A DNA stretch of 64,000 nt, taken from Variovorax paradoxus EPS. GTDB taxonomy: Bacteria > Pseudomonadota > Gammaproteobacteria > Burkholderiales > Burkholderiaceae_C. Below are positions 1 through 11,251 of the stretch, one piece after another. Each line of letters begins with the position of its first letter. The stretch's first letter is position 1. Below the pieces are notes generated by a model. That model worked only from the letters and a program-made list of their open reading frames with translations. It did no database searches and had not been told where the DNA came from. The translations under genes and the position numbers were made by a program. The DNA lies in contig NC_014931.1 of assembly GCF_000184745.1 (NCBI RefSeq), positions 4,898,001 to 4,962,000 on the forward strand, written 5' to 3'.

Positions 1-1230
1 CGCCTTCGCCTGTGCGTAGCGCCACGCGATCAGCGTGCCGATGCAGAGGAACAGCGCGGCGATGAAGAACGGCGCGCCCGGCAGGTGGACGGGCGCGTCC
101 GTGGCGATGAAATAGCCGAAGCTGCCGGCGAACATCGTCGGCCCGACGATGCCCGCCACCGACACCAGGCTCGTCAGCGCGCCCTGGATGCGGCCCTGCT
201 CGGCCGCGCCGACCTGGCGGGTGACCAGCGCCTGCGCCGCCGGCCCGGCGAACGCCAGCAAGGTGCCGAACGGCAGCGCGGCCAGAAGCATCCAGCCCGC
301 ATCAGCCAAGCCGATGACGATGAAACCGAGCACGCCGAAGCCCATGCCGAACAGCAGCGCACGGCGCTCGCCGAAGCGCTTCACGCCCGGCCCGATCAAC
401 AGCGCGTTGACCAGCACGCTGAGCACGCCCACCGCGCCGAGCACCCAGCCCACCGCGTCTTCCTTCCAGTGGTAGCGGTAGTCGGCGAACAGCACGAACA
501 CGCTCGGGTAGACGTACTGGGCCAGGTTGACGAGGAAAATCACCGCCGCCAGCCCGAACACCTGTGGATAGCGCTTGAGCAGCAGCAGCGAGCCGAGCGG
601 ATTGGCGTGCGACCAGTCGAACTTGCGGGCGCGCCGCTCCGGCGACAGCGACTCGGGCAGCACGAACCATCCGTAGCAGAAGCTCAGAAGCGTCAGGCCG
701 GCCGCGAACCAGAACGGCAGGCGCGGATCGATGTGGCTCAGTTGCCCGCCGAGCACAGGCCCGAACACCAGGCCCATGCCGAAGGCCGCGCCCACGATGC
801 CGTAGCTGCGGGCGCGATCTTCCGGCGGCGTCACATCGGCGATGTAGGCATTGGCGATGGTGAAGCTGGCCGAGAACACGCCGGACACGACCCGGCCGAC
901 GAACAGCCACGGCAGGCTGTCGGCCAGGGCCATGAACACGAAATCCACGCCGAGGCCGAGGCACGACAACAGGATCACCGGTCGCCGCCCGAAGCGATCG
1001 GACAGCGCGCCCTGGATCGGCGAACTCACGAACTGGATCGCCGCGAACGCGGTGCCGAACACCGCGATCCAGTACGCCGCCGTCGCGGTGCTGCCGCCGG
1101 CCAGGCGCTCCACCAGGTGCGGCAGGCCGGGCAGGATCAGGCCGAACGCGAGGAAGTCGATCAGCACCGTCACGAAGATGAAGGCGAGCGCGGCGCGGCG
1201 CACGCGCGGTGCTGGAAGGGTGGCGCTCAC
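1..1230 (-). CDS. MFS exporter, TetA-like (3' end beyond window)
   Basis: This is a 12-TM-type major facilitator of the tetracycline/multidrug exporter family. It starts at a GTG whose bases overlap the stop of the upstream glycosyltransferase (GTGA), so the two genes are probably translationally coupled. The frame is open for 410 codons to the window edge, about the full family length, so little is missing. The hydrophobic N-terminal helix is followed by the loop GALSDRFGRRPV, the classic MFS motif A. As last gene of the NRPS operon it most likely exports the finished product. In Pseudomonas aeruginosa rhlC is likewise followed by an MFS gene, the closest architectural parallel I know. Substrate assignment is inference from context. 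Confidence 0.88.
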   Translation of the reverse strand, partial: MSATLPAPRVRRAALAFIFVTVLIDFLAFGLILPGLPHLVERLAGGSTATAAYWIAVFGTAFAAIQFVSSPIQGALSDRFGRRPVILLSCLGLGVDFVFMALADSLPWLFVGRVVSGVFSASFTIANAYIADVTPPEDRARSYGIVGAAFGMGLVFGPVLGGQLSHIDPRLPFWFAAGLTLLSFCYGWFVLPESLSPERRARKFDWSHANPLGSLLLLKRYPQVFGLAAVIFLVNLAQYVYPSVFVLFADYRYHWKEDAVGWVLGAVGVLSVLVNALLIGPGVKRFGERRALLFGMGFGVLGFIVIGLADAGWMLLAALPFGTLLAFAGPAAQALVTRQVGAAEQGRIQGALTSLVSVAGIVGPTMFAGSFGYFIATDAPVHLPGAPFFIAALFLCIGTLIAWRYAQAKA

Positions 1231-2198
1231 TCGCTGCGACTCATCAGGTATTTGCCCACGCGGGGATGCGCCTCGATGAGTCCTCCCAGCCGCCCGAACA
1301 GGCCATCGAAGCAGCCGAGCACGAGCGCGATGGTCTTCTTCAGGCGATCGCGCTCGAACATCAGCATGGGCAGGATCTGCTTGAGCGTGTAGACGTTGAC
1401 GAAAAGAATCGCGGGAAAGGCGCGCACATGCGCCCGCGAAAGGTCCAGCGCATTGCGCGCGATGTAGTAGCGCCGCGCGGCCGGATAGTTGATGAAATGG
1501 ATCTTCCAGCCGAACAGCGACCGGGCCTGGATGTCGCCGATCTGGTGCCGCAGCACGACGTGCGGATTCAGGTACAGCGGCACCTCGCGGCCGAGGGCGC
1601 GCATGCAGTAATCGGTGTCCACGTGGTCGATCACGTAGCGCTCGTCGAACCGGCCGACCTTGGCCCAGGCGCCGCGCGAAATCAGCGAGCCCGAAGAGAT
1701 CATGAAGGCGCAGCGCATCAGCGGCTCGGTGAAGGGCCGCCGAAGGTCGAACTGGTAGACGCGCTTGCCCTCAAGACCGAATTGCGGGATCAGCGCGTCC
1801 AGGTTCGTGTCGTGAACGAGCGGGCCGATCAGGAAGGCCGCGTCTTCCCCGCGTTCGCCCTCGCCCGCCCTGCCCCGGGCCACCATCGCGGCCTCGCACA
1901 TGGCATCGAAGTAGCCGGGCGGCAGCTTCGAATCCTGATCGAGCAGGAAGAAGAGTTCGGCGCCCCGCGCTTCGAGGTCGACGATGCCGCAGTTGAAGGC
2001 GCCCGCGATGCCGCCGCGGTTGCCGTTGTGCAGCACCGGGACGCCCGCCTCGATGAGCGCCGGATGCCACCCGTCCACCTGCGGCGTGTTGTCGACCACA
2101 CAGAGGCGCGGGCATGAGGCGGCCAGCGAATGCAGGTTCGCCACTTGCTCGTCGGTCGGGAAATAGGTGACGACGACGGCACCGAACGGGACGGACAT
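1227..2198 (-). CDS. GT2 glycosyltransferase, RhlC-like rhamnosyltransferase
   Basis: A 323-residue family 2 glycosyltransferase. The pattern follows RhlC (rhamnosyltransferase 2): N-terminal nucleotide-sugar fold, GNRGGIAGAFN at about 59-69, DQDS at 87-90, an ISSG segment near 167-170, DHVDTDY at 191-197 and RYYIARNAL further on. RhlC adds the second rhamnose of dirhamnolipids from dTDP-L-rhamnose on the cytoplasmic side of the membrane. I chose the ATG at 2198 (MSVPFGAVVV), 8 nt after the mbtH-like gene; a longer in-frame extension is low-complexity and unlike the family. By context it should glycosylate the lipopeptide, perhaps as the second sugar. Donor sugar and acceptor are not proven by sequence. 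Confidence 0.88.
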   Translation of the reverse strand: MSVPFGAVVVTYFPTDEQVANLHSLAASCPRLCVVDNTPQVDGWHPALIEAGVPVLHNGNRGGIAGAFNCGIVDLEARGAELFFLLDQDSKLPPGYFDAMCEAAMVARGRAGEGERGEDAAFLIGPLVHDTNLDALIPQFGLEGKRVYQFDLRRPFTEPLMRCAFMISSGSLISRGAWAKVGRFDERYVIDHVDTDYCMRALGREVPLYLNPHVVLRHQIGDIQARSLFGWKIHFINYPAARRYYIARNALDLSRAHVRAFPAILFVNVYTLKQILPMLMFERDRLKKTIALVLGCFDGLFGRLGGLIEAHPRVGKYLMSRSE

Positions 2199-9700: not shown

Positions 9701-11251
9701 GAGTGCCACGGTGCGCTCCGGGCCCGCGCCGCGTGCGCGCAGCAGGTGCGCGAGACGGTTGGCGCGGCGGTTCAGTTCTTCGTTGGGCATCGCCTCACCG
9801 TCGAAGCGCAACGCGATGGCTTGCGGATTGGCGGCGAGTTGCGCTTCGATGAGCGCGGTGAGGTGCATGTCGGGCACGGTATGGGCCGTGTCGTTCCATG
9901 TAACCAGCAACTGCTTGCGCTCGTCGGCGCCGAGCAGATCGATCTGTCCGACAGCCTGCAACGGCAGACGGATCACGGCGTCGATGAACGCCAACAAGCG
10001 GCGCTGGTGGTCGGCCAGGTCCTCTGCGGTGTGCACCGCGGGGTTGGCGTCGAAATCGATCTGCAGGTCCTGCCCGTTGCCTCGTTCGTACAGGAAGATG
10101 CCGAGGTCTTCCGCCGTGCCGTTCGAGAGGTTGCGCGGTTTGGCTGGGTGGCCCGCGAAACGGAAGTCGTAGTCGAAGGGCTCGACGTTGACCACGGTGG
10201 TGAAGAGCTGCCGGTTGTTCACCAGCATGTTGAGGTCGCTGCGCAGGTGCTCGTAGCGGTACGACTGGTGCCGCAGGATCTGCCGCATCTGCCGGCCGAC
10301 TTCGCGGATCAGTTCCGGAATCGGCAGGTCCGCGCGCATCGCGAGGCGCAGCGGCAGCGCGTTGGCCACCATCGCGGGCACGCGGCGCATGCGGTCGTTG
10401 TGGCGTGCGGTGACGGGAATGCCGATGGCCATGTCCTCGATGCCGGTCGCGCGATACAGGTAGGCCGCGGTGGTGGCGATCAGTATCTGCGGCAGCGTGG
10501 TGCCGAGCTCCTGCGCGATGGTCTGCAGCGCCTGCACGCTGGCCGCGGGCAGGTGCACCGTCTGGCGCAAGAGGCCACCGATGTTGACCGAGCGGCGCGA
10601 GGCGAGGCTCAGCGGATCGGGCGCGTCGGCGAAGCGCTCGGTCCAGTACTGGCGGTCGCGCGGAAAGCGGCCGGACTCGCGGTAGGCGTGTTCTTCGTCA
10701 GCGAGCTGAGAGATCGGTGCGAGACGCGAGTCTTCGGGCACCGCTGCGTTGTCGTCGGCCATCGCGGTGTAGGTGTCGGCGAAGCGGCGTGCAATGAGGC
10801 CGCCGCTGAAGCCGTCGAGCACGATGTGGTGGCTGCGGTGGTACCAGATGTGTCGATCGGGCGCGAGACGGATTAATGCGGAGAGCCACAGTTGTCCGTG
10901 CGCGAGGTCGATGTTCCGGGTGTAGTCGGCGCGCATCCAGCGCTCTGCCTCGGCCAGCGGATCGCTGTCGCCGCTGAGGTCGAGGTACGGAATCTCGCCA
11001 GCAAAAACAGGTGCGACCACCTGCCGCGGCCCCTGCGGGGTATCGACGAAACCAAGGCGCGTGGCCTCGACTTCGTCGGCCACCTGCCGCATGGCGGCGA
11101 GAAAGATGTCGGGGTCGATCTCGCCAGCGATGTCGATGGCTTCGGCGAGATTGAAATTGGTGTCGGGCGAGGCGAACTTTGCGCCGAGCCACATCGCCAT
11201 CTGCCCCGAGGTAAGGGGGGCGGTGCGGCCCAGCTGATCGACGGTACTCAT
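3776..11251 (-). CDS. Two-module NRPS, C-A(Ser)-T-C-A-T-reductase
   Basis: A 2491-residue nonribosomal peptide synthetase. In order: condensation (about 10-440, HHIVLDG at 141-147), adenylation (465-960, [11 protein letters not shown] at 613-623), carrier ([10 protein letters not shown], Ser1006), condensation (1048-1500, HHIAGDG at 1188-1194), adenylation (1520-2010), carrier (Ser2055) and a terminal thioester reductase (NAD(P)-binding GASGFVG at 2131-2137, YSQSK at 2288-2292). There is no epimerase or thioesterase. Reading the pocket by hand gives DVWHISLVDK for A1, a serine code, and DAMLVGAICK for A2, hydrophobic but unassigned. An N-terminal C domain without a loading module suggests a fatty-acyl starter. 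The reductase should release an aldehyde or, after a second reduction, an alcohol. First gene of its operon. Confidence 0.95.

Follow-up and report, generated by a model that had tools for sequence, protein, structure and literature searches.

A five-gene nonribosomal peptide synthetase operon in Variovorax paradoxus EPS

The stretch analyzed here, termed the window, comprises 64,000 nucleotides of Variovorax paradoxus EPS (NC_014931.1, positions 4,898,001 to 4,962,000), whose genome is a single 6.55 Mb contig. Open reading frame (ORF) and profile reading of the window identifies a set of five genes, all on the minus strand, in the order nonribosomal peptide synthetase (NRPS), first glycosyltransferase (GT1), MbtH-like protein, second glycosyltransferase (GT2), and major facilitator superfamily (MFS) exporter. 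The genes are packed as one operon, with intergenic gaps of 11, 25, and 8 bp followed by a 4 bp overlap between GT2 and MFS. ORFs together with Pfam and NCBIfam matches confirm this tightly packed arrangement, as described in a first-pass annotation of the locus. With moderate confidence, we propose that this gene set directs the synthesis and export of a small glycolipopeptide, namely a glycosylated N-acyl dipeptide alcohol or aldehyde.

3776–11251, minus strand: NRPS, 2491 aa, ATG start
2445–3764, minus strand: GT1, glycosyltransferase of the EryCIII/UDPGT type (Pfam/NCBIfam, tree, motif)
2207–2419, minus strand: MbtH-like protein, 70 aa (Pfam PF03621)
1227–2198, minus strand: RhlC-like GT2, 323 aa, ATG start (TIGR01556 score, tree, motifs)
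1–1230, minus strand, last 30 bases outside the window: MFS exporter (MFS_1, Pfam)

The ATG start was used for GT2, the GTG start given by the ORF program (2348) lying upstream. The MFS gene ends 30 bases before the window start at 4,898,001 of the contig.

A lipoinitiating NRPS with a terminal reductase

The NRPS is built from a starter condensation domain (Cs), adenylation (A), carrier (T), and condensation (C) domains, and a thioester reductase domain (R) in the order Cs-A(Ser)-T-C-A-T-R. Pfam and NCBIfam recover two Condensation, two AMP-binding, and two PP-binding matches as well as a terminal NAD_binding_4 match, and the thioester reductase model TIGR01746 scores 274.9 bits (cut-off 213.35).

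9908–11224, minus strand: Cs starter (lipoinitiation) condensation domain, HHIVLDG (closest solved relative RzmA-Cs)
8378–9847, minus strand: A1 adenylation domain, code DVWHISLVDK (code reading)
8126–8314, minus strand: T1 carrier domain, GGHSL (Pfam, motif)
6719–8071, minus strand: C2 condensation domain, HHIAGDG (Pfam, motif)
5231–6664, minus strand: A2 adenylation domain, code DAMLVGAICK (alignment-based code reading)
4967–5149, minus strand, limits approximate: T2 carrier domain, GGHSL (motif)
3938–4873, minus strand: R thioester reductase (TIGR01746; motifs LTGASGFVG and YSQSK)

Among solved structures, the first condensation domain is nearest to RzmA-Cs (7c1k/7c1h, E about 1e-91), followed by CdaPS1-Cs. 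RzmA is part of a synthetase that makes another, longer peptide, and the rhizomide/holrhizin synthetases RzmA/HolA provide a domain relative rather than a cluster relative. The domain carries Gly at the position of the RzmA gate residue R148 and Ser at the position of Y138. According to the available part of the RzmA study, R148G yields chiefly C8 and little C10, while addition of Y138A moves the preference to C10–C12, the double mutant having Ala, not Ser, at position 138 (PMC7804268). Thus, the Gly/Ser pair points to an acyl chain of about C10 or longer.

The A1 code DVWHISLVDK is taken by us to be a serine code. The A2 code DAMLVGAICK is identical in all 27 two-module NRPSs read, window included, and its substrate is probably hydrophobic. 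Codes were read by alignment, and one chance motif match (L136_A2) was excluded from the counts. The Pfam scan returns the two Condensation matches and no third, and no epimerization (E) domain was found in the NRPS. The R domain carries the nucleotide motif LTGASGFVG and the YxxxK motif (YSQSK); its nearest solved structure is MxaA (4u7w), presumably an alcohol-forming reductase, with 8v1x nearly level.

Two modules followed by a terminal reductase are also found in AusA, whose model matches the NRPS at 1111.6 bits over the modules and the R domain. By analogy, the R-released dipeptide aldehyde might cyclize on its free amine to a pyrazinone of the aureusimine kind. AusA is not known to have a starter C domain or sugar genes. 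The match is under the model's cut-off (2500), the extra Cs domain would cap the amine, and the one-module relatives described below would be unable to cyclize in this way, which makes a pyrazinone very improbable. Likewise, the first module scores 1532.8 bits with MxcG and 1132.1 bits with EntF, as would be expected for a siderophore related to myxochelin or enterobactin. Both scores fall below their cut-offs (2300 and 2400) and are explained by the serine-type A domain. Moreover, no dihydroxybenzoate or hydroxamate gene occurs among the five genes, and further large NRPS genes lie at 4.66–4.69 Mb of the contig; a siderophore is hardly credible here.

GT1 is distant from RhlB

GT1 had been annotated as RhlB-like, an assignment that does not survive comparison. 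Identity to Burkholderia glumae RhlB amounts to 26% (E 1e-13), while two glycosyltransferases from other contexts are 42% and 41% identical. The donor-site motif reads TNGGYGS in 36 of 40 cluster GT1s and NGGYG(S/A/G) in the other four, in contrast to HHGGIGT in both Burkholderia RhlBs. In a tree of 39 rows (17 of the 40 cluster glycosyltransferases, 20 others, and the two Burkholderia RhlBs), a long branch separates cluster GT1 from the RhlBs; rooted on the latter and carrying a long-branch warning, this tree shows distance and does not test placement. Together, the low identity, the different donor motif, and the long branch lead us to reject GT1 as a member of the RhlB clade, as represented by the two Burkholderia RhlBs. 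Further, GT1 weakly matches macrolide glycosyltransferase models, a self-immunity model among them, with every score below cut-off. Both this distance from RhlB and the terminal reductase domain had been missed by the first-pass annotation.

GT2 and MFS resemble a rhamnolipid RhlC-MFS pair

GT2 has no Pfam match and scores 161.4 bits with the TIGR01556 model “rhamnosyltransferase” (cut-off 200.55). Its identity reaches 43.7% with B. glumae RhlC and 41.1% with a P. aeruginosa rhamnosyltransferase, which we take to be RhlC. A tree with 12 cluster GT2s, from which seven unlinked ones were left out and which carries long-branch warnings, joins GT2 to four proteins that are RhlC or RhlC-like and sets five other GT2s apart (support 100/99). 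Both sequence blocks previously pointed out as RhlC-type, GNRGGIAGAFN and DHVDTDY, are present, with close forms in the proteins of B. glumae, P. aeruginosa, and Inquilinus; forms of the two motifs are absent from the one rfbQ outgroup checked. Phylogeny hence places GT2 with the RhlC group, as expected at first pass, while GT1 stays far from RhlB. The Inquilinus GT2 sits with Burkholderia RhlC, away from Variovorax, which suggests that RhlC was recruited twice separately.

Over 365 residues, the MFS protein shares 38.6% identity with its counterpart adjoining the P. aeruginosa RhlC-like gene, in contrast to 23.5% over 119 residues for the DHA2-annotated exporter of the B. glumae rhamnolipid operon. 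As a rhamnolipid counterpart it consequently holds for P. aeruginosa and not for B. glumae. Its closest models are Tet(A)-type efflux proteins, all below cut-off. The proposed check for dTDP-rhamnose genes was positive: rmlD (328.8 bits, above cut-off), rmlC (PF00908), an rmlB-like gene, and, by eye, an rmlA-like gene lie within 10 kb of each other in the genome. None of the five genes is an RhlA gene, and a B. glumae RhlA query has no match in this genome at E 1e-3, in a tool run without a positive control; B. stagnalis is retrieved at 78% when that query is run in a script.

A conserved core with two add-ons in Variovorax

NRPS, GT1, and MbtH form the core of the system, to which RhlC plus MFS and an O-acyltransferase are two add-ons. 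The core occurs in 25 of 101 Variovorax genomes, window included, with GT1 identities of 81–100%; three further genomes hold remote GT1 matches (43%, 31%, and 31%) and no NRPS. Carriers were first defined by GT1, and a second survey, in which the Cs domain served as independent probe, returned exactly the same 25 genomes. NRPS and MbtH stand beside GT1 in 25/25 carriers, the NRPS being cut by a contig end in locus L030 and broken in L068. RhlC and MFS are linked to the NRPS in ten carrier neighborhoods.

At E 1e-25, RhlC is detected in 17 of the 101 genomes, 16 of them NRPS carriers (Fisher test against the core, p 2e-11, uncorrected for kinship). MFS follows RhlC in all 17, ten times beside the NRPS and seven times elsewhere. 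Six carriers (G009, G016, G076, G100, G114, G118) hold RhlC unlinked, on another contig or far away; in G118, it lies 5.6 Mb from the cluster on one contig. The remaining nine of 25 carriers have no RhlC match at this threshold, and a second sugar would therefore not be essential.

The O-acyltransferase (Acyl_transf_3, PF01757) is found at E 1e-60 in 13 of the 101 genomes, all of them carriers and all RhlC-positive. Nine copies are linked to the cluster, and four lie elsewhere (G068, G104, G111, and the 450-contig draft G029); no orthologue was found in the genome of the window at E 1e-60. Its restriction to genomes with both core and RhlC fits an action after RhlC, and the nested distribution predicts a pathway order of core, RhlC, and acyltransferase. 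On the tree of the 25 GT1 genes, RhlC needs three changes and the acyltransferase five.

This distribution also bears on whether the product might be a glycosylated peptide aldehyde, a protease inhibitor or antibiotic against which GT1 would confer self-protection. R domains can halt at the aldehyde, the exporter is TetA-like, and the sub-threshold GT1 matches include a self-immunity model. However, the constant pairing of GT1 with the NRPS in 25/25 carriers and the addition of RhlC and acyltransferase suggest tailoring instead, and MxaA is the nearest solved relative of the R domain. We consider such an inhibitor or antibiotic unlikely.

Some copies are disrupted. In L068 (8557–12895) and L115 (Variovorax sp. 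CF313), the NRPS is split over two frames and is short of one C-A-T unit, which represents either a module deletion or an assembly collapse between similar A domains. In two pieces and different frames are also the RhlC orthologues of G114 (L248, 7968–8920) and G029 (L030/L239/L242; G029:C81:15836-17152), and the Cs frame of G029 holds two stops. As G114 and G029 are drafts, their broken frames reflect decay or assembly error.

Relatives outside Variovorax vary in module number

Across 399 genomes from this family, ten have a GT1 match at E 1e-40. Two of them are Variovorax, three belong to another genus and have an adjoining NRPS (64–77%), and five lack the NRPS (35–45%). In a scan of named genomes, of which the best 80 of 445 relatives were kept, all 31 loci with at least 56% GT1 identity carry Cs, A, T, and R domains with MbtH adjoining. 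At 50% identity or less, none of 49 loci has this set in its fetched flank, 16 of the 49 offering less than 20 kb of sequence. Among the 31 loci, 16 are Variovorax, several being contigs of the genus survey; the other 15, which include soil and plant bacteria, belong to Collimonas, Paracidovorax/Acidovorax (6), Bradyrhizobium (2), Tahibacter, Inquilinus (4), and a Rhodospirillales metagenome-assembled genome.

Four of these 15 NRPSs have two modules and eleven have one. GT1s are very close in P. valerianellae, with a two-module NRPS, and Acidovorax sp. SUPP3334, with a one-module NRPS, indicating that module number can change quickly. The one-module NRPS of Bradyrhizobium BTAi1 shows the A2-type code DAMLIGAICK and no Ser code, and the A code of Bradyrhizobium URHD0069 reads DAWQFGLIQK. 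The non-Ser, one-module form of BTAi1 weakens the Ser hydroxyl as an obligatory GT1 acceptor. GT1 and R are constant, in contrast to Ser, which favors the R-made alcohol or an acyl-chain hydroxyl over the Ser side chain as the probable acceptor.

In one Inquilinus locus (L132), the one-module NRPS and GT1 are accompanied by a LuxR regulator, an HlyD/AcrB (RND) pump, RhlC, and MFS. RhlC-MFS occurs in two of the four Inquilinus loci; L133 is cut by a contig end, and L135 has no RhlC-MFS within 10 kb. In Bradyrhizobium sp. BTAi1 (L131, 3223–5601), LuxR and LuxI lie directly ahead of mbtH-NRPS-GT1, with a similar pump recognized by eye. This gene order suggests quorum control of the BTAi1 product; the BTAi1 cluster is not mentioned in the available part of PMC3899966.

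A peptide analogue of rhamnolipids would be in keeping with the LuxR or LuxR/LuxI genes and pumps next to two alphaproteobacterial relatives, with the likeness of GT2 and MFS to the P. aeruginosa RhlC-MFS pair, and with the dTDP-rhamnose genes. Such a product would be a rhamnosylated lipodipeptide biosurfactant on whose acyl chain counterparts of RhlB and RhlC act serially. The operons known for rhamnolipids, rhlA-rhlB-MFS-rhlC in Burkholderia and MFS-rhlC in P. aeruginosa, share RhlC (41–44%) and, in P. aeruginosa, the MFS gene with the operon described here. In contrast to them, no RhlA was found, GT1 is not RhlB, and the B. glumae MFS protein is annotated as DHA2. What is repeated of the rhamnolipid layout is thus the RhlC-MFS cassette and not the whole, with RhlC absent from nine carriers and unlinked in six. 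A true rhamnolipid analogue is conceivable but rather doubtful.

Proposed pathway and product

For the preferred product, the glycosylated N-acyl dipeptide alcohol or aldehyde, the following route is predicted. Cs would condense a medium- or long-chain acyl-CoA (about C10 or longer) with serine on module 1, and module 2 would add a second, probably hydrophobic residue. Release by the R domain would yield the aldehyde of the N-acyl dipeptide or, with greater likelihood, its alcohol. Subsequently, GT1 may attach a first sugar, with the terminal alcohol just formed or an acyl-chain hydroxyl as acceptor, and the RhlC-like GT2 may add a second, probably L-rhamnose from the dTDP-rhamnose pathway of the genome. 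MFS would export the product, with MbtH assisting the A domains. In relatives, the O-acyltransferase might then decorate the disaccharide. The data establish the order of domains, their conserved motifs, the family placements, and the conserved association of the genes, from which substrates, sugars, linkage, the alcohol end, the tailoring order, and any surfactant role are predicted. The glycosylated N-acyl dipeptide suggested at first pass is consequently retained for its N-acylating two-module NRPS with glycosyltransferases, without the RhlB part, and its role as a biosurfactant is plausible.

Several observations weigh against this proposal. The donor site of GT1 is unlike that of RhlB, so that RhlB does not indicate the sugar, and likeness to RhlC is no proof of rhamnose, GT2 scoring under the cut-off of the rhamnosyltransferase model. 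Sequence does not settle aldehyde versus alcohol release. A GT1 with no NRPS nearby (L149, 10001–11275, Pseudomonas sp. 6D_7.1_Bac1, 45%) is placed by the tree among the cluster glycosyltransferases, although weakly supported there. Conversely, RhlC-MFS is present in genome G074 (86% complete), which has neither GT1 nor Cs, and the nine carriers without an RhlC match lack the second enzyme of the predicted disaccharide at the threshold used. Finally, a kinship-aware test of RhlC against acyltransferase is non-significant, with two to three independent pairs.

Comparison with described systems

Brabantamides are the nearest described products, and mycobacterial glycopeptidolipids are the nearest architecture. 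Brabantamide has Ser as its first residue, and its NRPS ends in a thioesterase, not a reductase. A starter C domain, a Ser-type A1, and two modules, which we presume in part to be brabantamide features, are likewise present here. According to the part of PMC4493835 available, brabantamides consist of two amino acids and a 3-hydroxy acyl tail that bears the sugar, and the cluster braABC of Pseudomonas sp. SH-C52 resembles the present operon in combining a two-residue lipopeptide NRPS with one glycosyltransferase that places sugar on a lipodipeptide. Unlike the operon, braABC includes the Baeyer-Villiger monooxygenase BraC, and that part of the source names no MbtH, RhlC, MFS, or acyltransferase for it (PMC4493835). 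No FAD monooxygenase was found by Pfam/NCBIfam among the five genes, the flanks being read by eye only.

Glycopeptidolipids, as far as covered by the available parts of PMC3537567 and PMC1885439, are specified by mps1/mps2, mbtH/gplH, gtf1, gtf, gtf3, and atf. They share an N-acyl peptide, an NRPS, a cluster MbtH, and glycosyltransferases for 6-deoxy sugars and rhamnose with the operon, as well as the amino-alcohol end predicted here. Their membrane sugar O-acetyltransferase has a counterpart in relatives and none found in this genome (PMC3537567, PMC1885439). In contrast, they contain four residues, three of them D, and a C28–C35 acyl chain thought to need a polyketide synthase, and they are located in the cell wall (PMC3537567, PMC1885439). 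The systems compared here have one or two modules, no E domain found, and acyl loading by Cs, and the likeness is one of description, not of sequence. Exactly this architecture, or a product tied to this gene set, was not found in the open-licence literature, most subscription papers lying outside that search. The earlier statement that no such product is described thus stands for the exact architecture, whereas “nothing comparable” would be too strong in view of brabantamides and glycopeptidolipids.

More tentatively, and with confidence somewhat short of even, we suggest an unnamed, mobile glycolipid family in Beta-, Alpha-, and Gammaproteobacteria. Its members would be glycosylated N-acyl amino-acid or dipeptide alcohols, made by NRPSs of the form Cs-A-T-(C-A-T)-R that have a GT1 and an MbtH of their own. 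They would be miniature glycopeptidolipids varied by module number, by an RhlC-MFS cassette held in common with pathways of the rhamnolipid type, and by a sugar acyltransferase. In Variovorax, the product may be the wetting agent of surface spreading. V. paradoxus EPS produces a chemically uncharacterized wetting agent, as stated in the available part of PMC2704215, and the corresponding part of PMC3283707 on V. paradoxus EPS mutants names no NRPS. If this is true, lipopeptide NRPS, rhamnolipid RhlC-MFS, and glycopeptidolipid-like sugar and alcohol chemistry are joined in three to six genes, each tailoring step is open to single-gene removal in a soil genus, and the V. paradoxus wetting agent becomes directly testable.

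Insertion sites and upstream control region

Flanks read by eye show a xanthine dehydrogenase-like locus beyond MFS and a LysR gene upstream of the NRPS. Besides this xdh-LysR site, the cluster occupies a second site beside a biotin-carboxylase-like gene, the 2.5 Mb replicon of V. paradoxus VAI-C, and others (L065, L067). The GT1 on the VAI-C plasmid (84%) is the sole match above 60% among the plasmids searched. For the LysR site, 30 loci were fetched from 82 matching genomes, and 12 of the 30 loci are from non-carriers. In five of these 12 (L208, L211, L214, L217, L221), xdhS lies directly beyond LysR with no cluster gene between; three others have an Nramp-like gene, and four show nothing recognizable in the 1.5 kb flank.

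11380–11463, minus strand: upstream control region; TGAAAT occurs three times as a direct repeat (from 11463, 11435, and 11406), together with a TACAGT −10-like box

The TGAAAT repeats are spaced by 28–29 bp (window 11395–11463), and the first two, taken as a pair, are unique in the genome. The block is alignable in 23 neighborhoods across insertion sites, with degenerate repeats in L029, L032, L063, and L064. Thus, the putative control region travels with the operon.

Outside the window, three large NRPS frames (4639, 4341, and 1897 aa) with nine condensation-domain matches lie at genome positions 4659251–4691334 and are perhaps siderophore genes. Another NRPS frame of 1706 aa with two condensation-domain matches is found at 3094652–3099142.

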